The notes under the pieces are model-generated. The model searched no databases, was not told the DNA's origin, and saw only the letters and a program-made list of their open reading frames with translations. A program made the position numbers and the translations under genes. Shown here piece after piece: positions 15,501-63,412 of a DNA stretch of 64,000 bases (within the stretch, counting starts at the first letter, position 1; each line of letters starts with the position of its first letter). The DNA is from Haliotis asinina (lineage: Eukaryota > Mollusca > Gastropoda > Lepetellida > Haliotidae), in assembly GCF_037392515.1 (NCBI RefSeq), contig NC_090288.1:3527501-3591500 (forward strand), in the 5' to 3' direction.

Positions 15501-18500
15501 TAACAATGGCTACAAACAGATCTGCCTCACATACCCATAAATACATTTTGACCAAAACGTTCAAATTTAGTCTGTGTGAATACAAAGAAGAGAAATTACA
15601 TCATGCTGACTTTACTAAAACAATCAGGTAGGAAAACAGCCAGATGCAAGATTCAAATCATTCCATTCACATAGGTTCGCTGAAGTGTACAATCCAATAC
15701 CAGTGCTTGAAACAGTTCAAAATTAACATTGAGGTGTTCAGTAAGATAATTACGTTGTTCACTGGTCCCTCAGAGCCCATGGGTTGATGTATCCTCAATG
15801 TTTGTTTATGTCAAAGGTACACTGCCCTTCTTGCTCAGGGTGCATCAACCCATGGTCTAGTGACTAGAGAACAATGTATAATATTCACTCTTTGTACTGA
15901 CTCCGCATTCACCTGATGAAGGAGCAAGAATTAGCTAAGAAATGTCGTGTGAAGAACAAAAAGAAATTAAAATCCATAAAACTTGTGATGCATTCAGGTT
16001 CGTTAAGCTTCTAACTACCTTTCAACAACACCTAATTTGTCATACATGTAGGATATATATGTGTCAAATGTCCTGTGCCTATCTGGTGTCCTCTATCATG
16101 CACCTCTAATGTGTCACACATCCACTATATCTGTGTTGCAAACAGCATTCGAAATAATCCCCGGACTCGAGGCCAAGGGCTGCTAGTAATTTTATCACAG
16201 GGCCTCAAAATAATTTTTGAAAGAAACTTGCCATAGGAAAAGTGACTTTAAGAAAGCAACATGTCCTAATTTTCCTCTTGTCACGGGTGTCAGGCAATGG
16301 GATTTTTAACCCCTGTATCGGACCAGCAATGTCAAGTATTTGCAGACCCTTGTGGCTTGCAGTAACTTATCTGTAGTTTTAATTTTTGACAGAAATTTTT
16401 ATTAACAGTTAGGAATTATCAATGATCCATCATGTTACGATTCACTTCCTGATATTGCAGGCAGCAGCAGGCCTGGATGGCTAACTGGCAAATTTGAAAT
16501 ATAGCAAAAGCTGGTTCCATTTAAGCAATATCGTGAGTCTAAAGAATGTACTATACACTAATCAGTCATTCAAGGGGCATGGGACTGCACTCTCTCAGGC
16601 AGGACCAAACATAGTTGCATGTGATCAGCTAACCGCTCCAGTTACAAAGGGGCAGCTGTTCAGACTGTGCAACCAGACTTACAGGATTAGACCCTGTCAC
16701 AACACGAACTCAGCACACTACATTTTTGTCATTACAGCAACCATGTAACTGGCTACTCATTTCTGGGTCAGCATGCCTCCATTCTTGGTCCATGTACAAG
16801 CTCTATATTAGCTGTGTATTTTAATAAAATACATAGCATACATTACATTGCTGACAAATATGTGTGGCAAATTGCTAAAACCCAACAGTAAAACACTCTC
16901 TCTCTATATATATATATATTTACTGATTAACATGATTTTAAGCACACATCACACTTCCATACCATAATTAATGCAATATTGGTGAATTATTTATTGTTAA
17001 TAAGACAAACATATAGTTGTGGTGAGATTCTGTGACATGTTCACTTATGTGAGTTTATGTGGCATGTTCACACAAAGTGCAACCAAAACCAGACAAAAAA
17101 TAGTTGCCTAAAAGAATACTATTTGACAGCATTTAAACACTCTGCCATATTTGGACTTAACTGTTTATTCATGAACTTTTGTATATATTTCAAACTTTAA
17201 GAAATAACCTTATACTGCGAAATGTATTACAAATAAAACACATTTTAAAAATACTGTTCCTTGCAAACAAAAAGTCATAACTATTTTCTTTGATAATGTA
17301 TGAATTCAGCATTCTTTTTTACCACAAGAGAACATAACAAAATTGCTGACGACAAAAAATGTTTGGTTAAATCAAATGGGCGGCAACTTTTTTCTGATTC
17401 CTAAAAAGTGTTATACTTTGTGTCAAATAATGCATGAATCATCACTGTAAATAATTATAATACAATCGTTGTAATTATCACTATAAACATTATACAATGT
17501 TCTGCAAGACTTGCACTATTGCTGGTATTATATTAACCTTGTACAATCCTGATCCCTTAATGACTACTTCAAAGCATAAAAATGAAAAAAATGTTCCCGA
17601 GTCATGATGGTCAATATCTATATCAAGATCCTTATCAATACCACAATCAAGATCAAGATGATCCTAAAAATAACTGTGACTATACGAAATGCCTCTGGCT
17701 AAACAGAATTGCAGGGATAAGTTCATCTAAAGACTTCTCACAGACAGACATTTCTCTTGCTCTGGATATAGCTCATTGTTGGTTTACAAAGCTATAGCCA
17801 GATCCCTAGATTAACACCGCCAGGGCAAGTCTATCCACAGGCTGTGACAGTTGGACAATATGACGAGGTGTTAAAATGGCTTTGGTCAATGTGTGTAATC
17901 CACAGATTAAGAAGACAACAAGCTGGTGCCTGCCCTTTCATAATCCCATATGTACCAGTAAACAGATGGTTGCATTTAACTCAATACCATAGCCGGCAAA
18001 TATTGAACTAAAAAATCTGATGCATCTATCACATACCTAGATAGAAAGAACTTCTCAATGAAATATATGGAAAATCACACTCTCTCCAATATGCTTACAA
18101 TAATATATAATATATGCATTATATAGTTGAAAAGAACTTGCTATGAAGAAAGTTAGCCCAATTCATTTTTCAAGTTCCAAGTCCATTTTATGTCATTGTC
18201 AAAATCTAATTTGCTGAAAGGATGTTAGTCTGTCACACAGTCCCTGAACTATATTATATTCCCTACTGCCTAGTCCTCACTGCAATTGCAAAACCCTAAA
18301 TGAAGCAAATCTACAAAAAGAATGCATGATATTCTATTTGATAAAACAACTATCAAAAGTCATGAAACAGTCACAAACACAGCAGGAGTGAGTGAGTGAG
18401 TGAGTGAGTGAGTGAGTGAGTGAGTGAGTGAGTGAGTGAGTGAGTGAGTGAGTGAGTGAGTGAGTGAGTGAGTGAGTGAGAATGAGTTGAGCTTAGTCTT

Positions 18501-38167: not shown

Positions 38168-41100
38168 ATGGAAAGTGTGAAAAACTTCATCGCAGGTGGA
38201 GTTGGAGGAGTATGTTGTGTCGCAACTGGCCATCCTCTTGACACTATCAAGGTATGTACGTGCAAATGTCACAAATTAATGGATTTGTGTGTCTGTTGGA
38301 CTTTGTACTTAGTACTCACCTGGCTCGCTATGGCATTGGTACTCGACAATTCCATCGACATTATTGGAGCAGTCATGATTTTACCACAATAGAATACTAT
38401 TCATTTTCCAATACCGAAAATAGGATTTGGAGACATTATCACAAAACTTGTCATAAGGGCTGTTTTAACACGTCATGTAACTTATTGGGTTTTTGTATGT
38501 GGCGAACATTCATTGTAAATAGTGTTCTGTATTTAGTAATGTGATATATGTCTGCAGTTTCTGCAAACCATGAACGGGATGCAATATTGCTATCGTTTAA
38601 CATTGATATCAGTCTCTAAGCAAGTCAAGTAGGACACTATTAACATTGTAACAATAAGACATTGCAGAAAGTGGTACATTTTCTCATTATCAATTTAAGA
38701 CCTAAGCAGATTAAAATCAGTGATTAGACTCCAGATTATAATTCATGTCTTTTTTCACAGGTGCGACTTCAGACAATGCCAAAACCAGAGCCAGGACAGT
38801 CCCCTTTGTACAAGGGTACATTTGACTGTGCCTTAAAGACTATTAGGCAGGAGGTCAGTTAACAACTTTAGCCACTTCTCAGGAGCTCAGTAATAAAATT
38901 CTGTTTAGTCTTGTAACATCAATGAACAGCCAACATAACTATATCAGACATGTAATAAGGTATTCTAAAAATGATGCTAAGTACTGCCAGATGTTGGAAA
39001 GACGTATCTGGCCCATTTCCAAAACTGATTTATAGCAAATATTATTTACCATATCAAGCATATCCTTTCCATCTTACACAAAATGTCTTACTTAGGCTAT
39101 TGTAGGCAACATTCTTAAGACGTAAACTGTTTTCTCAGTGGCTGTGTTTGAACAAATCAATGTGTCATGTACATTGACTGGACTTTGGACTCAGTAGTCA
39201 GTATATTCCAGCTACTGACTTGTTAATGCTATTTACAGAAGTCGGACAAATACAAAGATCTACACCAGTATTGGAGGGTCCATGCCATGTTAATATGATC
39301 AAATGTTTCACTTCATGTAAAATATTTCATCTTATATGCATGACAGGTAAAAATGGATTCTGATAATATAAATTGAATTATCAGAAAGTGGAACTCGGGA
39401 GTAAAAGAATCCCATCGCCTTATTGCCCAGTTCGGGCAATCAAATAATGGTATCTTACTTGTCTGTGGATGCCTAGATAATTTCCACTTATGTTTTCAAA
39501 CTGCAAATAATTAGATAGATGCTCATGAAGCCAATCAGTGGATTGTCTGGTTCAGACTCGATTATTTTACTGACTGCTTCCATATAGCTAGAATATTTCA
39601 CGGTACTAACCAGCCAACCCTGTAGATACAGAGTCTGGCTTGTGGTGATTTGGACAGATAAAATTTGTACCCTATGTGGCAAATCCACTACATGTATTTG
39701 AACAAGAGTGTAACATTTTTGTCTGTTGCTAGGGCGTCCTGGGCCTGTATAAAGGTATGGCAGCTCCCATTACAGGCGTGGCACCGATCTTTGCTATATG
39801 CTTCTACGGATATGGCATTGGAAAGACCTTGCAACAGAAGACTCCAGGCGAGCAGCTATCGTGAGTCCGTTATGTTTGTGAATTAGGAATTTGATGACAA
39901 TTTGCATATTTTTAGGTAAATCTGCAACAGTTATAACACTATGACCAGTGTTTTAGTGTTAGTAATGCAATGGAATATCCCCATCAAAGCAGCTCAGTCT
40001 TGTTGAGGACACACTATGTGTAAAGAGAAGTCATTATTATATTACCGCTGTTAACCCAAGCTGCTTATGTGGTGCTAGGAAATCAACAGTTATATGACCA
40101 TCTTATGCCACCTGGTACCCATTCAGGACTGGGTGAACAGAGGTAATTTTGAACAACTCACTAACCTTAGGTGAGAGCACAAGTTTCATCAGTGCTTTAT
40201 TGTGGGACAAGAGTGAAGTCCTAGAAACTCTCAGGAGTCAAACTGCCAAACACAGTCACCCACTGATAGATTCTCTCTGACCAATATTGCTTAACTTCAA
40301 CTAATTTGGGACCTGGACTCTATGCACAAGAGATATGATACTGATAGTTCACTTTCATCTGAATTTTGTCAGGAAGTGTGTTAATATACAAGGTACCTTG
40401 TTGATACTTATTTATTATCATTTATAATATGGAGAAATATTAACATTAGTTATTACTTGTTTACCAGGGACTTGTTTCACAAAGCTCACATAAACCTCAT
40501 AAAATGCTTTCTTTGTAGCATTCATACTTCCAATGTTACAGTATAGGAGGTACAAATGTTACAAGGAAAGTTACAAGATCTTTGGCTTACGAGAGCTTTG
40601 TGAAACATGGTCCTATTCACAAGTTAATTTAAGAACTACAGCTTGATTTTTGTTCAAGAGAGGGGTAGTGGGATAGCGCAGTGGCTAAAGTGTTTGCTCA
40701 TCACGCTCAGGGGTTCATTTCCCCACATGGGCACAATGTGTGAAGCCCATTTCTGGTGTCCCCAGCTGTGGTATGGCTGGAATATTGCCAAATCAAACTC
40801 ACTCACACACTTTCATCAGGAGAGGGACATTGTATTCTACTTTTATTTTTAGAGAAAATTGTGTGTCTATATATGTTGATGAACATTTCCTTGTACAGGC
40901 ATATCCAGACATTCAATGCTGGTATGATAGCTGGCGTGATGACCACAGTCATCATGGCGCCTGGAGAGAGAATCAAGTGTCTCCTGCAGGTAAGTAAAGT
41001 TGTGTGTCGCTACAGCTGTAACTTTTTAAGAGATTGCCTTCTGCCTTAGCAATGACATGTCCCATTTCGGGAATCATTGTTTTGAGTTGGGTACACATTT

Positions 41101-44100
41101 TTAGTTACATTATTGATAGACCCATGAAGATTTGGGTTAGAATTGATCTTCAATAAACCATGCTAGTCATAAGAGCTGTCATATAGCTGGTATATTGCAG
41201 ACTTTGGTGTCAAACTACTTTAGTATTGATAGTGTGTCTGTTTCTTTATATTGACTGGATTTCATTTTTTAGCTTTTCTGCTCTGTTCATATATGTTCAA
41301 ATAGCTGAAACAAATTTTCTAAATTTCAATTTCCTTTCCTGCTGCCTGATACGGAGACTTGACACGGATAGAAATATGCTTTTTTTAAGGGTGCCATTAA
41401 GCCCCAAACAGATATTTTTGGAGGGCCTTATGTAAAAATATTGTAATATTTGTTGAATTATTTTTATTAATTTTGTCACGAAGGGACACACTGAAAATAT
41501 TTCAGCCCTGTCATTTCGATTACTGTGTCATGGCATGGCATTAAGCACTATTTCGATCCCTGTTGATATTGTCCATATTGTACAGATCCAACAAGCTGCA
41601 GGTGGTGAGGCCAAGTACAAGGGTCCCATTGACTGTATGAGGCAGCTATACAAGGAGTCAGGGATAAGGGGCGTGTACCGTGGCACGTTTGCCACACTCT
41701 GCAGGGATGTGCCTGCAACTGGCATGTATTTTATGAGCTACGAATGGCTGAAACGAGTGCTCACTCCAGAGGGAAAAACGTAAGTTGGCAGAGGCAGGTA
41801 GTGTGCAAGCATTAAACTTATTGCATACCCAAGTGGTTAAAATGATCGCTTGTCATCGTGAGGACCTGGGGTTGATTTCCCATATTGGTTCAATTTGTGA
41901 AAGCCCATTTCTGGTGTTCCCGCTGGGATATTGATGCAGTATTGTTAAAATTGGCATAAAACCTAAGTCTCTAACCTAACTAGTCCTTGCTAATGGTAGT
42001 GTTCTGATAAATTAAATGCTCAAAGATTGGTTGCAGTGACCGAACTACCAAGCAATCAATGATATTTTCTCATAATCGAACACAAATGATTTGGAACTAC
42101 TGTTTGAGTCATTGAAACACTTGATGATTGAACATGTCTGAAAAGTTGTCTAGCCTGTGTTTAGTTCTTAGAATACACACTTTACTTAATGAAAAGTAAT
42201 GACTCAGTATTTCCTGAAGACACCAGGCAGTTCATGTTCATGATGAAAGGGTAAATCTGAGAAATGATGCCAATAATTTTTTTTTGATAATTGCTCATTT
42301 TATTGAACCAGGCATTTGGAGATTTCAACCAATTCCCAACACTACTTACTAGTATCTGTACATTGTGCTTGTTTTGAGTATTATAGAGTGATATGAGGTG
42401 CTTGTGTCTCCAGGACTAGTGACCTTGGTGCTGCAAGGCTGTTGCTGGCTGGTGGAATGGCGGGGATCGCCAACTGGATGGTTGCTATGCCACAAGATGT
42501 GCTCAAGTCCAGGTTCCAGACTGGTGAGTTTTCTGTCATCTCCAATCTTAGAAGGGTTAGCCAAGTGGTTAGAGCATTTGCTTGTTGTGCCAACAGCCTG
42601 TGTTTGATTCCCCACTTTGGTACAATATGTGAAGCCCATTTCTAGTATCCCTTGCTGAGATAATGCTGAAATATTGCCAAAAGCGACATAAAACTAAACT
42701 CACTCACTCACAAATTGGTCCCAATATTCATATAGTCGTACCAGTATTCATAAATTGGTCTCAGTATTTGTACAATATTCTCCAGTGTGATATTTCAGGA
42801 ATATTTGCTAAGAGCTATGTGAAAAACATTCACTCAGTGTAATGACTGTGTTGTTCAGTGATAAGTCAGGAATATGGGAACTAGTTGCAAATGTCATTGT
42901 AGTGAAATTGATGGTATAAGAACTGATATAATCATCAAACCATACGGCCATAATGTCATTATACAATGTTTATCTTGATCATTATTATGTAAAATCATAA
43001 TCTTAATCTTAACACATACCGTGATCAAAATTGTAGGGATGTTTTCATACAATGGCTTATGATCATAATTTCAAGAATTTCACATTCCAAGTATTGTGAT
43101 AAAAATATGGGAATGGAAACAGTATATCTCATGGTCAATAGTGTATTGTACAATATGTATCATGATAAAATCTGTATCATAACCATTTATACGAATACGA
43201 CAATGCAGTATTCATAGTCATTGAGATAGCAACTATTTGTGTAACCACCTCTTCACCTCAACAAATTTGTGAATGTTGCACAAATGTATATCTACAGTGT
43301 GATTGATTGAAATACTCAAACAAAATTTGGTACATTTATTGATACAAAAACCAGTTAAGGAATGACATCCATGGAATTATGAAAACATTTTGTAGTGGAA
43401 ATAAGCATTAGATATGATAATTCATCTGTAGTCTCATGTAATCTGGGTAAAATATTTGGATTAAAACAATTAACTCAGATGGGATGGCTTGGATTGTAGC
43501 AGAGAAAATAATTCAGTATTTGCACTTTTCTCAAAAACAGGGAAAGGAAGTCGACTGGTATGATCATGTGGTCGTGGTATTTCTGCTTGAGACAAGAGTT
43601 CATTTGAATAAAATGTTTTTATGTATTTTGGGGGGAACGCAACGCAGGCAGTTTCCTCTACATTTCAGGTGAATGAGGGGATTAGCAGTTAGCATGAAGG
43701 AGAGATCAGGAAAGTGTTCATATTTCTGAAATTGTTTTGCTTGAATTGAGTCTCACTGACCTGTTTATGCTGCAGCACCCCATGGTATGTACAGTGGGAT
43801 CCGGGATGTGTTCCGTCACATGATGAAGGAGGAGGGACCCCTGGCCCTCTACAGGGGATTCACCCCAGTCTTGATTAGGGCCTTCCCTGCTAATGCTGTA
43901 AGTGTCACATGTTTGACTAAAGTCAAAGTTTCCCTGTCTTGATTCTGGCTTAGACTCGGTCAATATGTGTATTGGATGACTTAGACACCATGTGGATTGC
44001 ATGGTCAGACTCAGCTGATCATATGTCATTGTTCACACAAACTTTGTTCTTAAGATCAATCAATGGAATGTGTGGTCCAGTTGGGATGATTCATGTCATG

Positions 44101-47100
44101 TGGCTGGAATATTGCTAGTGCTAAATATGACATTAAGTAGCAAACAGAAATTTGTTGTTTCAATAGACTTCCAACAATTCATTAAATGAAGAAATAAACA
44201 GACACACTTTTTCCAACTTGAGCATCTGTTGAAGTAGACAAGTAGTTAAAACATTCTTTCATCACACCAGATAGTAGGTGTCAGTCTTCACATGGGTAAC
44301 TGATGCTTGTAAGAGGCAACTGATAGGATAGGATGGTCAGGCTTGCTGACTTGGTTGACATATGTCTGTGATCCCAAATGCTTAGACTGATGCTCATGCT
44401 AGGATTGCCTGGCCCAGGTCGATTATTTGCAGACCTCTGACATATATTGGAATATTGCTTAGTACAGAGTTAACAAACCAAGCATCCAACCAATCACATG
44501 GGTAAAATGTGTGAGGCCCATTTCTGTTGCCCTTCACAATGATTTTGCTAACAGGAGGTTCAAACAGCTAAAGTCTATCTATCTATAACCTTATTGGTAT
44601 TCTACAGCCTATTTTCTATTTAAAACATAACATTCAATTTTTCCTTATCCTGACTCATGCTTATTGCTTATCTCCTCTTCCCTGGTGAAGGTAGTGGAAC
44701 ACCTGAAATCCCTTGAAGTTCCCTTCTAAAAGAAGCGGACGTAAAATACGCTCACCCACACGTAGCCTCCCTTTTCCTGCGCAAACGATCAGCTGACCAA
44801 TCATGCTTGTCACTCTCTCCTTATCGCCCCCCAAGGGCAGCTGGAGTTAATGGAGTCCCCACTACTGCGATAAGTGTTTCAACTATTTCGGTCCTTTAGC
44901 TATATTTATGTCGTATGCAGTATTTGGTTTATGCATATGTATCACAATTTGTTTATTTGTAATTATTGTGTGTTGATATAGCACGTATTTCGTCAACCGA
45001 GACTTAGTCTCGATGAAATCATTTTACAGTGTAAATTACAGCTGTCAGCGGTTGACCCAGCGTGTAAGCCCTTATGTTCTTCCACTATTTGCTGTGAATT
45101 TATTGTTTAAATTCGTTCTTTTCACAGACGTGCGAGGTACAGGCAACGTCAACTTTCATTTGTCATGTCTAATCGGATGATTTAGCTTTGGGTCAGACGT
45201 GTCCCTGGGGTTATAACTTGGGTCCAGCGAGTCATTCCCTGGACCACAGAAAAGTACTTCATCGGGAACGGGGCCGTCGTAGCCTAAGAAGTCTAGATCA
45301 CCATCGTCGTCGAAGACAAAGTTGTTGCAAAATCAACATTCTTTGACAAAGAAGTTCTGTGGTGACAAGATCGACCCTCTACAGGAACGACATATGTACG
45401 ATGAGCCGCCGTTGTTGCTACACTTCGAGCAGAATGTCAACCAGCATAGACAACTCCGGATCGTCAGACAACGTAGACTTTGTCAGCAGCCTTGGTCATT
45501 GCAGTAGATATCTATGAGTCAGCCGTCACTGCAATCAACGCAGCTGGTCGATGCAGATGCCTTCATGCAACGTGAGTTGGGAAAGGTCATGTTGAAGAAG
45601 AACGAAGACTACAATCTTCAACTTTGTCGACAGCTGCTCCTAGATAGGCCACAAGTACATGATCACCGACAACGTAGACTTAGTCACCACGCAGACTTCG
45701 TCAGCAACCTCGGTCATCACAGCAGACATCTCTAGGAGTCAGTCATGACTGCACTCAACGCAGCCATTTGACACAGACACCTAAGAAAGAACACAGAAGA
45801 AATTGACTGCTGCTCGCTCCATGTTAGCACTCAACTAGATCTGCACTCACTCCAGAGGATGAAGAGGAGGCATATGCATGCACCTGCTCAGGAAGATCGT
45901 CACCGTCATCCGTGTCATCCCCTCACAGTCTGGAGAGAGAGAACCACCTACGTTGAGTGAGTGCACCTGCACGGGTGAGTGTCCTCACGTGAGTGACTAC
46001 ACCCGCGTGAATGAGGAAGCTCACGTGGGTGAGTGCACTCACAGGTCTACTCGTCAGTGAAGAAGATCTTCATCAGTCTCCCCAGCTCGTCGAAGGCGCC
46101 ATCAGCACTCGTCATCCCTTTCAGACCTGGACTCACATAAGAAGGATCGTCAGCGTCCATCGAATACGTCGCACTCATGGAAAGATGAAGACAGATATTA
46201 CCGATCGTCATCTCCAGAGGAAGCCTTCTTTTCAGACTTGGAAGTCACATCGTGGATCATTAATGGTCTGGACTTAGTCTCACCATCCAAGGACTCCAAC
46301 AAAACTAACTCTTATAAGGATGAAGAAGGAAGACATGCGTTGATGTTTCTGGCGATAGCTCCGATATCTACGATTTCTGAGAAGTTATCTTTGGCATTCA
46401 AGTCAGCATCCAAGTTTCAACAACAACATATACCACCTTTCAACGCTCATCTTTTCCCTCTTCGCCATGTAGAGCCCTCCATTAGAGCACCAGATGTAGA
46501 TGGGGCATACAAGATCATCAGCAGTCCCCGCAACAGATCTTACAAGATAGACTGGCTCAATTTAGAGCTGGCAACAAGACTTTCATCTCAAGTTCAGCAA
46601 TCCTGCGAGTGAGGAAGAGTGAATGATCCAGTCAACTTTCGTCACTCAGAAGAAGGATAAGCAGTTTACATCCAAACACCTCGTCTCAACTACTGCGGAA
46701 CTGAATCTACTTCCTAGACAAGATTGAAGAGTTAGCAAGGATGACTGGTCAAGATGTTAGAGAAGTCATGATGATCAAGTCCATCGACACCTTGACAACG
46801 GTGCTCAAGCAGACAAGTCAACATTACACTAACAAGTCCAAGTTCTCCAGTGTCATGAGAGCAAGAGATAAGAAGATACCGGGGTGTCCAGGAGATTACA
46901 CTCGTTACAACCGTCTCCAGTGGGTGAATGTCTTCAACTCGACTCAAAGAAGTGGGGAATTCTCAACGATGAATACGTCACGAAAATTCTTCGAGACGAT
47001 TGCAACAAACCACTGCAAACTACACCTCTGATCACAAGATATGACGGTATTATCTTTACTCACCTAGACACGTGCTCGCCAAGCAGCATGGTTACAGACA

Positions 47101-50100
47101 AGCCTTAATGGTAGCAAGGGTATCACCGTTTGCACAAGATTTCATGATGATCAGTTGTCTGCAACATCGGTGATGTCACGTCTACAATCTGATTGGCCCC
47201 CAAGAGACAACGCCCTTCAAAGAAAGCCGGTGACGTCACGTCTACAATCTGATTAGTCCCCGAGAGACCACGCCCTGCTAAAAAACCCAGAGACATTACA
47301 ATCTGATTGGTCCCCAAGAGACAACACCCTGCGCAGAATGTAAGGTTATTATTCCAGTGTGTCAAGAAGGCATCTAGTTCGACTTACAGTCTTTCAACGA
47401 GGGAAAGATGTTGTTTACACACTAGATTAGCAGTCTATAGCATCATTTGATTCTTCAGGTGGCATAGAGATCTAACAGCAGACTCAACGCCGCCAATCAG
47501 GAGGCTTGCAGCAATGAATGACAGCCAGCCAGCTACGAGGTTTGGCTGAAAAGTTCTAAGCCTCACTGTGAAAAAAAGTTACAAAGTCCACGTTTGTAAT
47601 TTATTTTTCTACATAGTCCCCTTTCAAGTTCACACACTTTTGCCAGCGATGCTGTAAGGCCCGAATCCCGGTCAGGAAGAAATCTTCAGCTACCCTAACA
47701 AAATCAGTCACAGCGGAAATGACGTCATCATTACTTGCAAAATGGCGACCGTCGAGTTCCTTTTTCATTTTGGGGAACAGGTGGAGGTCAGAAGGAGCCA
47801 AATCAGGTGAATAAGGAGGATGGTCAATGAGTTCAAAGCCACAATCGTGGATTGTTGACATGGCCACCACCGATTTGTGAACAGGCGCATTGTCTTGGTG
47901 GAAGAGGACACCTTTAACGATCATCCCTCGTCGTTTGGCTTTGATTGCTTCTCGCAACTGGTTCAGTAGATCAGCATAGTATCTGCCGTTGATAGTTTGA
48001 CCTTTTTCAAGATAATCAATGAGCAGAATATCCCTGGAATCACAAAAGACTGATGCCATCACCTTTCCAGCTGAAGGAACAGACTTGGCTCTCTTCGGAG
48101 CTGGTGAATCAGGATACTGCCACTGTTTTGACTGTAGTTTTGTTTCTGGTTGAAAGTGATGTATCCAGGTCTCATCCATGGTTACAAATCGTGCCACAAA
48201 AACATCGGGATCTGCTTCAAATTGACGCAAATTGTCAAGGGACGTCTGGAACCTGACACGTTTCTGTTCTGCTGTCAAGAGCTTTGGCACCCATTTTGCA
48301 GAAACTTTAGTCATTCCTAATTCGTTGGTGATAATATGCTCAACCCTCTCATGAGAGATGCCCACTACACTAGCAATATGGTGAGTAGTCAATCGTCGAT
48401 CATCCATCAACATATCGAGCACTCGCGTGATGTTTTCTGGAGTGGTTGCTGTTGAAGGCCTTCCTGAGCGTGGGTCATCATCAAGGCTTTGTCTGCCATG
48501 CTTAAATTCTGCAGCCCACTTCTTTACAGTGGAAAATGAAGGAGCATCATCCCCTAGAGTGGAGACCATGTCAGCATGTATCTGTGTTGGGGACATCCCT
48601 TTCTTTTGCAAGTACTTCATGACTGCCCTGTATTCAGTTTTGTCCATTTCTAATGATTTCAGAGGGTAGGTTTACCAAAAAAGCTGTAGTTGAGATAAAA
48701 CTATTAGTACATTTGTAGTTCTTGTGTCTATGATTCACTAAATGATTGTCCTCATTGGTGGCAAACACCTGTCTCTACCTGGTGGGGAAAAACCACTCAG
48801 GCTGAGAACTTTTCAGCCAACCCTCGTATAAACAGACTTCCTTGGAATGTCAACTCGTTCATAATGAACAGTGTTGATGATCTGGTGACGAAGAATGATG
48901 CATCTTCAAGGCATACAAGTTCATCAGAGAAGTCAACAGTTGGACTTCACTATCAGGCTACTAACACAGCTCGGATGACTTGGGAATCTAAATTCCTTGG
49001 GATTTCATTCATCACTACGTTGAAATACATTGCTGTCCCAGAGGATTAGTGGGTCAAAGTTCAAGCTACTTGAGATCCACATGGTCAACTCAACAGTAGC
49101 CTTCTACGTAAACAAGGGTCAACGAGACCTCCATCTCTAGTACACCTAACTTTTCTACTCTCCAACGTGGTTGACAGTCTGAATCTCCAAATAAAAGCAT
49201 ACCAGGAGCCTGCAGACACCTTATCTCGTCCTGTTCGTCCATCACCAACAGATCACATGCTGCATCGAGAGACATTTCAACTGATCAGCCAGAGGTTCAG
49301 ATCAGTGCAAATAGACTTATTTGCAACAAGGTTCAACTAAGAGACAGCAACCTTTGTGTCACCGGTACCAGATCCGTTAACTTGGGCATCAGTCGTTCTC
49401 AGCATCTCGTGGGAAGGACGCATTTGTGTTTCCCCCTCTAGTGCTGCTACCAAGAGTCATCGAGAAAATCAGACAGCTGCCAGGTCAACAGGACAGACAC
49501 TTACGCATACCGGCCTTGTCTGCAATACTTGGACCTCATGACTACTGAGACAGCTGAAGGCAACATATCCGCAGATAGCAGAATATTTATGTCACTTACA
49601 ACATTCCCAAGGTCTGAAAGAGGCTCTACATCATCTACATACTTGGCAGTTCGCATCTCTGTCGTCACCATGGAAACGGGAACCAAGCTGACTTAAGTAC
49701 CCAAGCTACTTGCCTTACTACGCTGCGTAGATTTAGTGCTCCAGCATGGGATTTAAACATCGTACTTCAGCATCTCACAAGTGATGCGTACATATCGCTT
49801 GATCGGACCTCATTTGATCTGCCAACTCAGAAGACGCTATTTTTATTTGCCTTAGCTACAGCTGCACGCATGTCACAAATTCATGCACTAGATTTGAAAC
49901 GCATGAGCTTTGATGCAAGTCATCAGCAGACAGATCATCTGGATCTACGATGGGATTTTATTTAAAAAAATCAACTGGATAGACAATTCCACATACTGGC
50001 ACTATCTTCAATCCTGGGACCTCATGATGCTCAAGATTTATCGTTGTGTCCAGTCAGAGCATTTAAGATATACATCGCACATACCAAGTCTAGAAGGAAA

Positions 50101-51231
50101 CGTTTCAAACCCCTGTTTATCCCTATATCCATTGAGACACCTAAGTAAAGGAAGTAACACTATCTCAGTGTAGATCAGAGCTGTTATATTGAGAGCCTAT
50201 AAAGCAGCAGGATTGGAGTCAGAGCCTTGGCCTCTTCACTAGCGCTATGGGAATTGCTCGCTAGCGACATGGGAATTGCTCGCTATCAACTATAATGGCA
50301 TTCATCAGTTGGGCCTCTTGTCATTGCTCAGCAACTAGCGGTTCTCCAAAGGCGCTGAGTTTATTCATCCTTTTTATCACGTGACTTGTGGAAGTCAGAT
50401 GCTCTGCAGAGTATAATGGTGGAAAGTCCATGTGCACATCTTAAAGAGACTAGCATGAGTGATTATGACCCTTTACTCGTAATGAAGATACTTGTACATG
50501 AAGAGGGGTCGCAACTAGTCTTGATTACAATATCTTGATATTTAGTTACATCAAAAACTAGCAGGACGCTAGTTACTTTCGATGTCACCACATTCCAGTC
50601 AACAAAGCCTTCTGCTGAAGACAAGTTCAACTGGATGTGATCCCCCAGAATCTACATCGAATATTAGAAGAGCAGGACCGAATTATCGCTGTTACAAGTT
50701 CCTGTTGGGGGGGAAATTATTGGATGTAATTTTGACATCCAGCAGAATCCAGCCTGGCCTGATCCACCGTAGTTTGCATCGGATTCTGTAAGCAATTAAG
50801 TCAGGATAAGGAAAAATATGTAATTTTCTGAATAAAATTGATATATTATACTTATCCTGACTAATGACGAAAGCCCTCCCAACCAACCCTCACAGGCACG
50901 CTATATTCCTATAATTCTCGTGTCAGGCGATTTACAAGGAGAGAGTAACAAGCATGGTCGGTCAGCTGACTGTTTGCGCAGGAAAAGGGGAGGCTACTTA
51001 TGCGTGAGTGTATTTTACGTCCGCTTCTTTTAGAAGGGAACTTCAAAGGGATTTCAGGTATTCCATTACCTTCACCAGGGAAGAGGAGATAAGCAATAAG
51101 CATGAGTCAGGATAAGTATAAAATATCAATTTTATTCAGAAAATTACAATTCTGATACCGAAACCTTTTTATTTCAGATGTGTTTCCTGGGTTTCGAGAA
51201 GGCGATGCAGTTTCTGAACTATTTGTTTTGA
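38168..51231 (+). CDS. SLC25A20: Mitochondrial carnitine/acylcarnitine carrier, eight coding exons
   Basis: Exchanges acylcarnitine for free carnitine across the inner mitochondrial membrane, bringing fatty acids to beta-oxidation. Coding exons: 38168-38251, 38761-38853, 39733-39860, 40899-40989, 41586-41779, 42414-42523, 43776-43897 and 51178-51231, all with GT-AG borders and matching phases. The product has 291 residues; human has 301. Three repeats each carry the carrier signature PX(D/E)XX(K/R): PLDTIK (23-28), PGERIK (123-128) and PQDVLK (223-228), the same three variants (PLD, PGE, PxD) as the human protein. Other shared wording: [61 protein letters not shown] and [13 protein letters not shown]. 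It lacks the roughly ten extra N-terminal residues of the human form. Intron 7 is about 7.3 kb and holds the nested DIRS-like/mariner insertion. Confidence 0.96.
39495..39610 (+). mobile_element. SINE family A fragment
   Basis: Head-to-middle piece: ATGCTCATGAAGCCAATCAG, TGGATTGTCTGGTTCAGACT, CGATTATTTTACTGACTGC and CATATAGCTAGAATATTTC. It lies in SLC25A20 intron 2, about 120 bases before exon 3. Confidence 0.7.
40100..40290 (+). repeat. Interspersed repeat E, copy 1
   Basis: Shares CTGGTACCCATTCAGGACTG, GGGTGAACAGAGGTAA and GAGTCAAACTGCC-like blocks with 57235-57400. The TGGGTGAACAGAGG phrase is the best conserved part. Class unknown. Confidence 0.5.
40467..40614. mobile_element. Foldback MITE with TTTCACAAAGCTC ends
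   Basis: Left end AGGGACTTGTTTCACAAAGC and right end (inverse) AGGACCATGTTTCACAAAGC frame a 148-base element with complementary arms (CATTCATACTTCC, ATCTTTGGCTTACGAGAGC). A diverged relative is at 55756-55890. SLC25A20 intron 3. Confidence 0.65.
40660..40812 (+). mobile_element. SINE family B copy
   Basis: Plus strand: GGATAGCGCAGTGGCTAAAG, GGGGTTCATTTCCCC, ACATGGGCACAATGTGTGAA, GCCCATTTCTGGTGTCCCC, GGCTGGAATATTGCCAAATC and AAACTCACTCACACA. Ends about 90 bases before SLC25A20 exon 4. Confidence 0.85.
41826..41968 (+). mobile_element. SINE family B copy
   Basis: Plus strand: CCAAGTGGTTAAAATGATCG, GGACCTGGGGTTGATTTCCC, GAAAGCCCATTTCTGGTGTT and AATTGGCATAAAACC. It begins about 45 bases after SLC25A20 exon 5. 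Confidence 0.8.
42005..42345 (+). repeat. Interspersed repeat C, copy 2
   Basis: Relative of 2345-2715 with TCAAAGATTGGTTGCAGTGA, CATAATCGAACACAAATGAT and the end block AACCAATTCCCAACACTA. SLC25A20 intron 5. Confidence 0.5.
42550..42716 (+). mobile_element. SINE family B copy
   Basis: Plus strand: GGTTAGCCAAGTGGTTAGAG, TGTGTTTGATTCCCCAC, TGTGAAGCCCATTTCTAGTA, GCTGAAATATTGCCAAAAGC and TAAACTCACTCACTCAC. It starts about 27 bases after SLC25A20 exon 6. Confidence 0.85.
44325..44540 (+). mobile_element. SINE A copy followed by a SINE B piece
   Basis: 44325-44475 is a family A copy (CAGGCTTGCTGACTTGGTTG, ACATATGTCTGTGATCCC, GATGCTCATGCTAGGATTGC, GTCGATTATTTGCAGACCTC, TGGAATATTGCTTAGTAC). 44492-44540 is the middle of family B (CACATGGGTAAAATGTGTGA, GGCCCATTTCTG). 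Both lie just before the DIRS-like element in SLC25A20 intron 7. Confidence 0.7.
44645..44822 (+). repeat. Left inverted terminal repeat of the DIRS-like element
   Basis: Begins CTTATCCTGACTCATGCTTA and includes TATCTCCTCTTCCCTGGTGA, AGAAGCGGACGTAAAATACG and TTCCTGCGCAAACGATCAGC. It matches the inverse of 50938-51115 over nearly its whole length. Confidence 0.9.
47158..47333 (+). repeat. Three tandem copies of a ~60-base unit
   Basis: TACAATCTGATTGG(T/C)CCCCAAGAGACAACGCCC recurs three times (with GTGA(T/C)GTCACGTC before two of them). It lies inside the DIRS-like element, about 200 bases left of the mariner end. Its origin is unclear. Confidence 0.75.
47536..48826 (-). mobile_element. Full-length mariner transposon with TA duplication
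   Basis: 1,291 bases. The terminal inverted repeats start CGAGG(T/G)TTGGCTGAAAAG and continue TTCT(A/C)AGCCT, 28 bases with two mismatches, and both ends are flanked by TA (47534-47535 and 48827-48828). The transposase reads from 48647 to 47601. It is inserted inside the DIRS-like element. Near-matching ends and an uninterrupted coding frame mean it arrived much later than its host element. Confidence 0.95.
47601..48647 (-). CDS. Mariner transposase, uninterrupted, DD34D
   Basis: Cuts and pastes its own element at TA sites in the nucleus. 348 residues, the usual mariner length (about 340-350). The N-terminal half (about 1-115) is a double helix-turn-helix DNA-binding region with the GRPS-type linker ([10 protein letters not shown] at 61-70). 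WVPKLLT at 119-125 matches the WVPHEL linker motif. The catalytic triad is visible: D158 in [11 protein letters not shown]252 in [11 protein letters not shown] and D287 in [13 protein letters not shown], with 34 residues between the second and third Asp, the mariner signature. The C-terminus [12 protein letters not shown] is also typical. The start codon is the first ATG of the frame and gives the expected MDKTEYRAV start. All key residues are present, so the protein may be functional; activity cannot be judged from sequence alone. It is antisense to SLC25A20. Confidence 0.96.
   Translation of the reverse strand: MDKTEYRAVMKYLQKKGMSPTQIHADMVSTLGDDAPSFSTVKKWAAEFKHGRQSLDDDPRSGRPSTATTPENITRVLDMLMDDRRLTTHHIASVVGISHERVEHIITNELGMTKVSAKWVPKLLTAEQKRVRFQTSLDNLRQFEADPDVFVARFVTMDETWIHHFQPETKLQSKQWQYPDSPAPKRAKSVPSAGKVMASVFCDSRDILLIDYLEKGQTINGRYYADLLNQLREAIKAKRRGMIVKGVLFHQDNAPVHKSVVAMSTIHDCGFELIDHPPYSPDLAPSDLHLFPKMKKELDGRHFASNDDVISAVTDFVRVAEDFFLTGIRALQHRWQKCVNLKGDYVEK
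50799..50862 (+). repeat. Internal complementary region of the DIRS-like element
   Basis: AGTCAGGATAAGGAAAAAT is the inverse of the extreme left end (44637-44655), and GTAATTTTCTGAATAAAATT...CTTATCCTGACT is the inverse of the extreme right end (51106-51147). The two lie joined back to back. This arrangement is known from DIRS elements, where it templates completion of a circular intermediate. It also fixes the outer limits of the element. Confidence 0.88.
50938..51115 (-). repeat. Right inverted terminal repeat of the DIRS-like element
   Basis: Inverse of 44645-44822, containing GCGCAGGAAAAGGGGAGGC, TTTTACGTCCGCTTCTTTTA and GAGATAAGCAATAAGCATGA. A further 32 bases beyond it (to 51147) belong to the element according to the internal complementary region. 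Confidence 0.9.
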
Positions 51232-51491: not shown

Positions 51492-51827
51492 TATTAAAGA
51501 TTAACTTTGAGTATGACCGCAGAAAATGTCTGACAGAAATGAATATATCTTGCACCACTGTGAGTTGTGACATGTTTCAACATGGAGTATTAACGAGACA
51601 GCGTCATGAACATAATTAATAAGCAGGTCATGAATAGAGTACTAAATATGTATCTTGTGTGAGAAAGTTGAAACATTTTTTCTGTCACAAAGGCTAATGT
51701 GCGATATTGACATCACATTTTTCATGTTGATTATCATTAATAAGTTTTCCTACTGACAATATTTCTGATTATCAATCATTTTGGCCAGCCTTACTTGCTC
51801 CATACAGTATACCAACAGGCATTTGTG

Positions 51828-51990
51828 GGTGCTGGGGTATCCTAGTGGTTAAAGCGTTTGTTTGTCATGCCGAAGACCTGGGTTCAATTCCCCTCATGGG
51901 TAAAAATGTGTGAAGCCCATTTCTGGTGTCGTTGCGGTGATATTGCTGGAACATTGCTAAAAGCAGCATAAAACTAGATTCACTCAGTTA
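51828..51990 (+). mobile_element. SINE family B, near full length
   Basis: The clearest family B copy: GGTATCCTAGTGGTTAAAGC (box A-like), GACCTGGGTTCAATTCCCC (box B-like), TGTGTGAAGCCCATTTCTGG, GATATTGCTGGAACATTGC, TAAAAGCAGCATAAAACTAG and ATTCACTCAG. The GGTTCAATTCC box is the canonical tRNA-type internal promoter. Confidence 0.9.
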
Positions 51991-62447: not shown

Positions 62448-63412
62448 CCATGGAATTCATGAAAAATATAAATGCCATATATCTGTAATAGAAAAGTCAC
62501 CATTTCAAAATCTGTCTCATATATCTGCCAATATCTTTTGAAAGATATGAAATGGTTTTCGAGTTGTGCTCCGGAAACCAAGTCAGCCACATATTCATGG
62601 AACCAAGAAAACAATACATCATAAAAACTGTGAATAGCAAAAGGCACCACTTTGGGGTCTGCAACACATATCTACCAAATAACACTGACAGATATTAAGA
62701 AGTTTTTGAGTTCTGCTCCGGAAGCAGAACACATCTTTCACGTTTGAAAGTAAGTCTGAAACGTTTCCATGGAAACCGAGAAAATAATAAATCACAAAAA
62801 CCTGTAAGTAGCAAAAGGCACCACTTTAGCTTCCGAATTGATATATGTACCAAGTTTTGCAGAAACATATTGAACGGTTTTTGAGTTCTGCTCCGGAAAC
62901 GAAGCCCATCTCTCAAATTTGAGACTAAGTCCGAAATGTTTCCATAGAAAGGGAGAAAATAATAAATCACAAAAACATGTACATAGCAAAAGGCACCACT
63001 TTGGCGTCTGCCTCACATATCTACCTGTTACACTGACAGATATTAAGAAGTTTTTGAGTTCTGCTCCAGAAACGAAACACACCTCTCACTTTTGAGACTA
63101 AGTCAGAAACTTTTCCATGGAAACCGAAAAAATAATAAATCACAAAAAACTGTACATAGCAAAAGGCACCACTTTAGGTTCTGATTCATGTATCTACCAA
63201 GTTTTGCGGAAAAATATTGAACGGTTTTTGAGTTCTGCCCCGGAAACGAAGCCCACCCCACCATAAGACTAACACCAAAATGTTCCATGGAAAAACAAAA
63301 AAAATATAAATGCCAAAAATCTGTAAATAGCGAAAGGCATTATACTATATCTATCAAGTTTGGTCTATAAATATTGAACGGTTTCTGAGTTATGCTCCGG
63401 AAACAAAATGAT
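62448..63412. repeat. Tandem array of about 170-base units
   Basis: Five to six diverged units, each with TTTCCATGGAAACCGA-type start, ATAATAAATCACAAAAAC, TAGCAAAAGGCACCACTTT, CATATCTACC, GTTTTTGAGTTCTGCTCC and GGAAACGAAGCCCA in the same order. Unit starts near 62598, 62768, 62939, 63113 and 63281, plus a more diverged one at 62448. On the minus strand it leaves open frames up to about 96 codons, but these repeat the same wording and are a by-product. It lies just downstream of ARPC4. Confidence 0.85.

Follow-up and report, generated by a model that had tools for sequence, protein, structure and literature searches.

The window analysed here, a stretch of 64,000 nucleotides from the genome of Haliotis asinina (C9:3527501-3591500), contains on its plus strand a mitochondrial-carrier gene of eight coding exons (38168-51231; Table 1). 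All seven introns have GT-AG borders and the joined exons form one uninterrupted frame of 291 amino acids, in which Pfam finds the three Mito_carr repeats characteristic of SLC25 carriers (E 3e-75). In the PDB the protein matched eight sequences, all of them other carriers. The gene is likely SLC25A20-like, judged by the human SLC25A20 protein, which also served to locate the eight coding exons; the residues at the exon 7/8 junction appear close to those of the human carrier, and exon 8 matches its C-terminus. An earlier note on this DNA had put six of the introns at 0.5-1.3 kb and the seventh at 7.3 kb, and had explained the length of the latter by a DIRS-like element with inverted ends that landed in it and later received a full mariner. 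The measured lengths (509, 879, 1038, 596, 634 and 1252 bp for introns 1 to 6, and 7280 bp with GT-AG borders for intron 7) bear this out. Removal of the DIRS-like element leaves 768 bp, within the range of the neighbouring introns, and the insertions thus lengthened intron 7 about ten times. The nest of three layers, the types of the elements and the cause of the intron's length are all supported by the analysis.

Table 1. Features of the carrier gene and of the elements nested in its seventh intron (window positions)
Feature	Position	Strand	Remarks
Coding exons 1-7 and introns 1-6, mitochondrial carrier (likely SLC25A20-like)	38168..43897	+	
Exons 1-4	38168-38251, 38761-38853, 39733-39860, 40899-40989	+	
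Exons 5-8	41586-41779, 42414-42523, 43776-43897, 51178-51231	+	
Intron 7	43898..51177	+	7280 bp, GT-AG
Two old interspersed-repeat remnants in the original intron	44305..44549		44497-44549 is a piece of a tRNA-like SINE
Element with DIRS1-like ends, degenerate	44637..51151	+ (gene's orientation)	6515 bp (5222 bp without mariner)
Left inverted terminal repeat, conserved part	44644..44822	+	differs from 50936-51115 by 11 substitutions over 178 columns
Coding-body remnant upstream of missing reverse-transcriptase core	46705..47056	+	named by eye
Three 60-bp repeats with TGACGTCA / TGATGTCA and CTGATTGG motifs	47168..47341	+	
Mariner (DD34D)	47536..48826	-	1291 bp, TIRs 28/30, TA on both sides
Mariner transposase	47604..48647	-	348 codons, then stop; three catalytic Asp aligned with Mos1
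Second half of RNase H-like region	49066..49340	+	64% identity over 84 columns to frame of relative L060
Degenerate tyrosine-recombinase-like region	49618..50370	+	67% over 78 aa to frame of relative L054
Internal complementary region	50788..50866	-	left part inverse of left end, right part inverse of right end
Right inverted terminal repeat, conserved part	50936..51115	-	
Divergent part of right repeat and right extension	51116..51151	+	inverse copy present in internal complementary region
Branch-point-like CTGAT	51152..51156	+	starts at the base after the element end, 22 nt before the 3' splice site
Exon 8, last coding exon	51178..51231	+	contains the stop codon

The outer element is bounded by inverted repeats (44627-44822 and 50936-51135) that are 91% identical over 200 bp (BLAST E 3e-72), and its conserved arms are separated by a K2P distance of 0.065 (6.2% between arms). 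Upstream of the right repeat lies a region complementary to both ends. Its stretch 50819-50866 matches 51101-51148 in 46 of 48 positions (96%, E 9e-16), and the core of the left end is repeated in inverse at 50799-50817, with 19 of 19 bases identical and indels beyond. The two complementary parts overlap on the AAT at 50815-50817, which constitutes a circle junction, and the element itself starts with ATT at 44637 and ends with ATT; beside this junction a single base distinguishes the right end from the complementary region. No target-site duplication is present, the two insertion junctions having only CAATT in common, which is partly element. Because this CAATT is shared, the borders of the element are uncertain by about 3-5 nt, and an uncertainty of a few bases also arises because the right end of its relatives mostly reads ...TTACAT followed by a varying base. 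The element thus combines inverted terminal repeats, internal complementary regions overlapping by 3 bp and the absence of a target-site duplication, as DIRS1-like elements do, and the DIRS-like insertion with inverted ends proposed for intron 7 is confirmed. The complementary region and the right end can form an internal hairpin (fold z -8), and an influence of this hairpin on splicing is conceivable.

Could the stretch from 44.6 to 51.1 kb be a misjoin or a chimera of the assembly? At 50.8 kb the complementary region reproduces the left end (44637) as well as the right end (51151), and therefore the two ends belong to one element. Moreover, the terminal repeats of the mariner and its TA dinucleotides are in register, and the flanks of the outer element, when joined, give an intron of normal size with intact acceptor signals, all of which makes an assembly artefact exceedingly improbable.

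Relatives of the outer element were sought in the host genome (1,143,192,487 bases in 159 contigs). A query with 48829-50788 yielded 1343 first-look candidates, of which 40 were scored, with matches of 69-95% apart from the window itself, and a query with 46200-47533 yielded 710, again with 40 scored; over most long matches the relatives are 75-90% alike. The DIRS-type ends are also found in these relatives, the internal complementary region having a counterpart in 18 of the 30 loci compared, at 16 places (some of the 30 loci overlap and seven are centred elsewhere in the element). For the RNase H-like piece no relative was confirmed in viral_contigs.

What does the element encode? Its body is full of stops, and a Pfam search of its pieces and broken frames gave nothing above chance (best E 0.13); a methyltransferase domain likewise had no Pfam match in the pieces of the outer element that were scanned. 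Among the relatives an open frame of L060 matches RT_RNaseH with E 0.039 and an open frame of L054 matches Phage_int_SAM_1 with E 0.012; neither match reaches the curated cut-off. Compared by sequence with the PDB, the L054 frame hit no recombinase and had a single match, PF16, with E 0.02, and Pfam found nothing above chance in the other pieces and broken frames of the relatives. Relatives that span the respective points contain some 70-80 bp extra at 47056 and about 380-430 bp extra at 49062-49066. The latter stretch encodes, as judged by eye, RNase H-like sequence, and therefore the window copy has lost the first half of its RNase H-like region. That the outer element is a large DNA transposon with inverted repeats, or another mobile element not of the DIRS type, would agree with its long inverted ends and with the lack of a reverse transcriptase or recombinase scored by Pfam, yet a complementary region with a circle junction together with a one-sided right extension is the DIRS1 layout as described (Piednoel et al., 2011; PMC3266345), and frames resembling RNase H and recombinase occur in the relatives, albeit as weak matches. 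We therefore consider a non-DIRS origin highly unlikely and treat the element as DIRS-like.

A reverse-transcriptase core was searched for by motif as well. In the window copy the sense frames lack the YL/IDD motif and have only FHDD, at 47140. Among the ten aligned relatives Y-x-DD occurs in none, and the sole form of Y/F-x-DD is again FHDD, present in seven of them; S/N-V/I-DD, perhaps a relic of the reverse-transcriptase motif, is present in six. The equivalent of window positions 47056-49066 measures just 616-789 bp in the ten relatives and contains 5-17 stops per sense frame, and a Pfam search of the three sense frames of this stretch in L037 and L048 detected no reverse transcriptase, which is weak evidence given the broken frames. 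Generally, the search for a reverse transcriptase is weakened by the decay of the sequences. A match to LCPV in the window copy was considered as a reverse-transcriptase motif and dropped, since in the survey LCPV appears only as the variant of one fungal element (PMC3266345). As the YL/IDD motif is absent, we class the element as a defective one whose ends are DIRS1-like and not as an autonomous DIRS1-like retrotransposon.

At the place where the reverse-transcriptase core would be expected, the window copy carries the three 60-bp repeats; in the ten aligned relatives the number of units is one or two. The motifs TGACGTCA and TGATGTCA of these repeats are CRE-like, and CTGATTGG is a reversed CCAAT motif. 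Distant RNase H-like places in the genome (150 scored of 1612 first-look candidates) contain open frames of up to 534 amino acids, and therefore DIRS-type kin bearing a reverse transcriptase may exist in the same genome. It could be imagined that the outer element belongs to a large non-autonomous DIRS-type family that lost the reverse-transcriptase core before it spread, carries the CRE/CCAAT-like repeats in its stead and is mobilised in trans by such kin, a proposal that we put forward tentatively and hold to be somewhat less probable than its opposite.

The inner element is a mariner in inverse orientation to the gene, with terminal inverted repeats matching in 28 of 30 positions, TA on either side and an unbroken frame of 348 codons. 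The transposase frame has no internal stop, scores above cut-off with Pfam HTH_48 and Transposase_1, matches Mos1 over 332 residues (phmmer E 1e-39) and has, by hand count, 34 residues between the second and the third aspartate, the spacing that defines DD34D elements. The family is abundant: among 860 first-look candidates in the genome 40 were scored, namely the window copy and 39 others, and these 39 are 97% identical to the window copy and are complete or at most 2 bases short at an end. Counted by hand, 20 of 25 copies, that of the window included, show the arrangement TA-CGAG...CTCG-TA, and 14 of the 24 other copies fetched have a stop-free frame of 357 amino acids. No mariner relatives were confirmed in genome_contigs and viral_contigs. 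From the majority of the family sample the window copy diverges by 1.94% as compared with 0.54-1.24% for the fetched sister copies; the 24 copies are among the best matches and not a random sample, and since such sampling favours copies near the centre of the family, we do not claim that the window copy is older than its sisters. Domestication of the window copy was also considered and rejected, as the changes that separate its coding sequence from the majority of seven others (17 replacement, 4 silent, 0 stop) are those expected of neutral drift.

The order of the two insertions is evident from the nesting and from the relatives. The alignment across the mariner site comprised ten DIRS-like relatives (loci not spanning the site were left out, as were second fetches of two places, L046 and L047), of which nine run through without a mariner and one, L041, is deleted there. 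Seven of the nine mariner-free sites read AGCTATAA, six after C and one after A, which is the sequence predicted from the window by removing the mariner and one TA; one of the remaining sites reads AGCTATTAA and the other AGCTGTAA. As the mariner is nested within the element and nine relatives are free of it, the DIRS-like element inserted first and the mariner later. Nesting alone would be compatible with a different course, in which the mariner already resided in a DIRS-like copy elsewhere and both reached the intron as the cargo of one retrotransposition, and there are other places where the two kinds of element meet: L023, one of the 24 fetched mariners, is a second copy of the same mariner family inside another DIRS-like element, and next to the DIRS-like relative L059 lies, on the minus strand and as seen by eye, a transposase frame that is mariner-type but of a different kind. 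As both families are abundant, nests of this sort arise repeatedly and call for no special explanation. A joint arrival is difficult to reconcile with the nine of ten relatives that lack a mariner at the site, with the flanks of the 24 other fetched mariners, none of which are the DIRS-like flanks of the window, and with the contrast between a less diverged, unbroken mariner and a DIRS-like body riddled with stops. A close sister bearing the mariner could have been missed, as 24 of the 860 first-look mariners were examined and similarity to the relatives is only 75-90% over most long matches; even so we regard the cargo course as very unlikely. In a simulation an undamaged mariner frame had a likelihood of about 0.0007 if the mariner were as old as the DIRS-like repeats, a figure that depends on an indel rate estimated from 2 indels. 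The counts behind the dating are small: with 11 substitutions, the DIRS-like element diverges by about 3% per arm (1.5-5.5%, Poisson, by hand), which overlaps the range of the mariner, 1.2-2.9%.

For the third layer the evidence is of another kind. The remnant at 44305-44475 matches seven further places in the window with 68-76% identity and is 12.2% diverged from the majority of six copies there, as compared with about 3% per arm for the DIRS-like element, which suggests that the SINE-type remnants were in the intron before the DIRS-like insertion. As these remnants lie beside and not under the DIRS-like element, nesting does not order them. Of the time line SINE remnants, DIRS-like element, mariner that had been read from the order of the elements, the second step therefore stands, by nesting and by nine of ten relatives, while the first is indicated by divergence only. 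A whole copy of the tRNA-like SINE is found at 51820-51990, and its 13 other matches in the window include copies in three more introns of the gene (3, 5 and 6); the whole copy contains a B-box-like GGTTCAATTCC. Scans of the window with Rfam at the gathering threshold and for tRNAs gave no match. The window also holds a tandem array with a 173-bp unit in about four copies (62596-63339) and a perfect (GAGT) tetranucleotide array of 23.8 copies (18386-18480).

How might the gene tolerate these insertions? The splicing signals lie outside both elements, and for this reason intron 7 is most likely still spliced as a whole. The CTGAT directly behind the outer element is the sole YTRAY in the last 60 nt of the intron, with a decoy AG upstream at 51139. 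Since only three of introns 1 to 6 have a YTRAY near the acceptor (16-19 nt away; the other three have none in their last 50 nt), the reading of CTGAT as branch point is plausible but not proven. On the sense strand AATAAA occurs within the outer element at 49190 and 50831. In a predicted fold CGAAACC at 51159-51165 can pair with GGTTTCG of exon 8 at 51190-51196, looping out the 3' splice site.

Taken together, the locus is very probably explained by a DIRS-like insertion into a 768-bp intron followed by insertion of a mariner into that DIRS-like copy. Briefly, one element of a large family with DIRS1-like ends would have entered an intron of this size, which contained old SINE-type remnants. 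By the route of the published DIRS model, a copy in the form of circular DNA may have recombined with the intron through a short match around ATT, the point of integration lying just upstream of the branch-point-like sequence. Such an insertion would add about 5.2 kb without target-site duplication and would leave the donor site, the branch-point-like sequence, the pyrimidine tract and the acceptor in place. The DIRS-like copy would then have decayed, and a member of the young and abundant mariner family would later have been pasted, in inverse orientation, into a TA of the decayed copy.

Nested mobile elements in introns are common and ordinary, and this case is unusually easy to read, as the nesting and the empty sites of sister copies both reveal the order of the two insertions. 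By ending at a branch-point-like sequence, the outer element offers a natural example of an insertion that probably came close to disturbing splicing without doing so. In this genome the mariner family is young and abundant, and the family with DIRS-type ends is large and may have no reverse transcriptase of its own. No title describing a mariner within a DIRS-like element within an intron was among the literature matches listed, from which we do not claim that none is in print. The one lead that merits pursuit is the possible existence of a non-autonomous family of DIRS type.

Among known elements the closest in layout are LgDIRS1-3 of Lottia gigantea and AcaDIRS1-2 of Aplysia californica, as described in the survey of DIRS1-like elements (Piednoel et al., 2011; PMC3266345). 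Like these, the outer element has inverted terminal repeats, left and right complementary regions overlapping by 3 bp and a right extension, and it shares with them, by description only, a length of about 5.2 kb and the lack of a target-site duplication. According to Table 3 of that survey AcaDIRS1, AcaDIRS2, LgDIRS1 and LgDIRS3 start with ATT, end with ATT and have the junction AAT, as the window element does, and the fifth molluscan row, LgDIRS2, has AAT/AAT/ATT. With a conserved repeat of 179 bp and 5222 bp without the mariner, the window element also falls within the ranges given there for DIRS1-like elements, 31-304 bp for the terminal repeat and 3974-6283 bp for the length. Unlike the LgDIRS and AcaDIRS elements as described, the window copy is degenerate, carries a mariner and has no recognised reverse-transcriptase core, with 60-bp CRE/CCAAT-like repeats in its place, whereas 25 of the 28 annotated DIRS1-like elements of the survey have the YL/IDD motif. 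The inner element resembles Mos1 (PDB 3hos, 4u7b) and the transposase domain of SETMAR in its 1.3 kb, terminal repeats of about 30 bp and TA target, and in the combination of HTH and DDE domains with an aspartate triad whose second and third members are 34 residues apart. It is a distant relative of Mos1, and one of many copies in its host genome.
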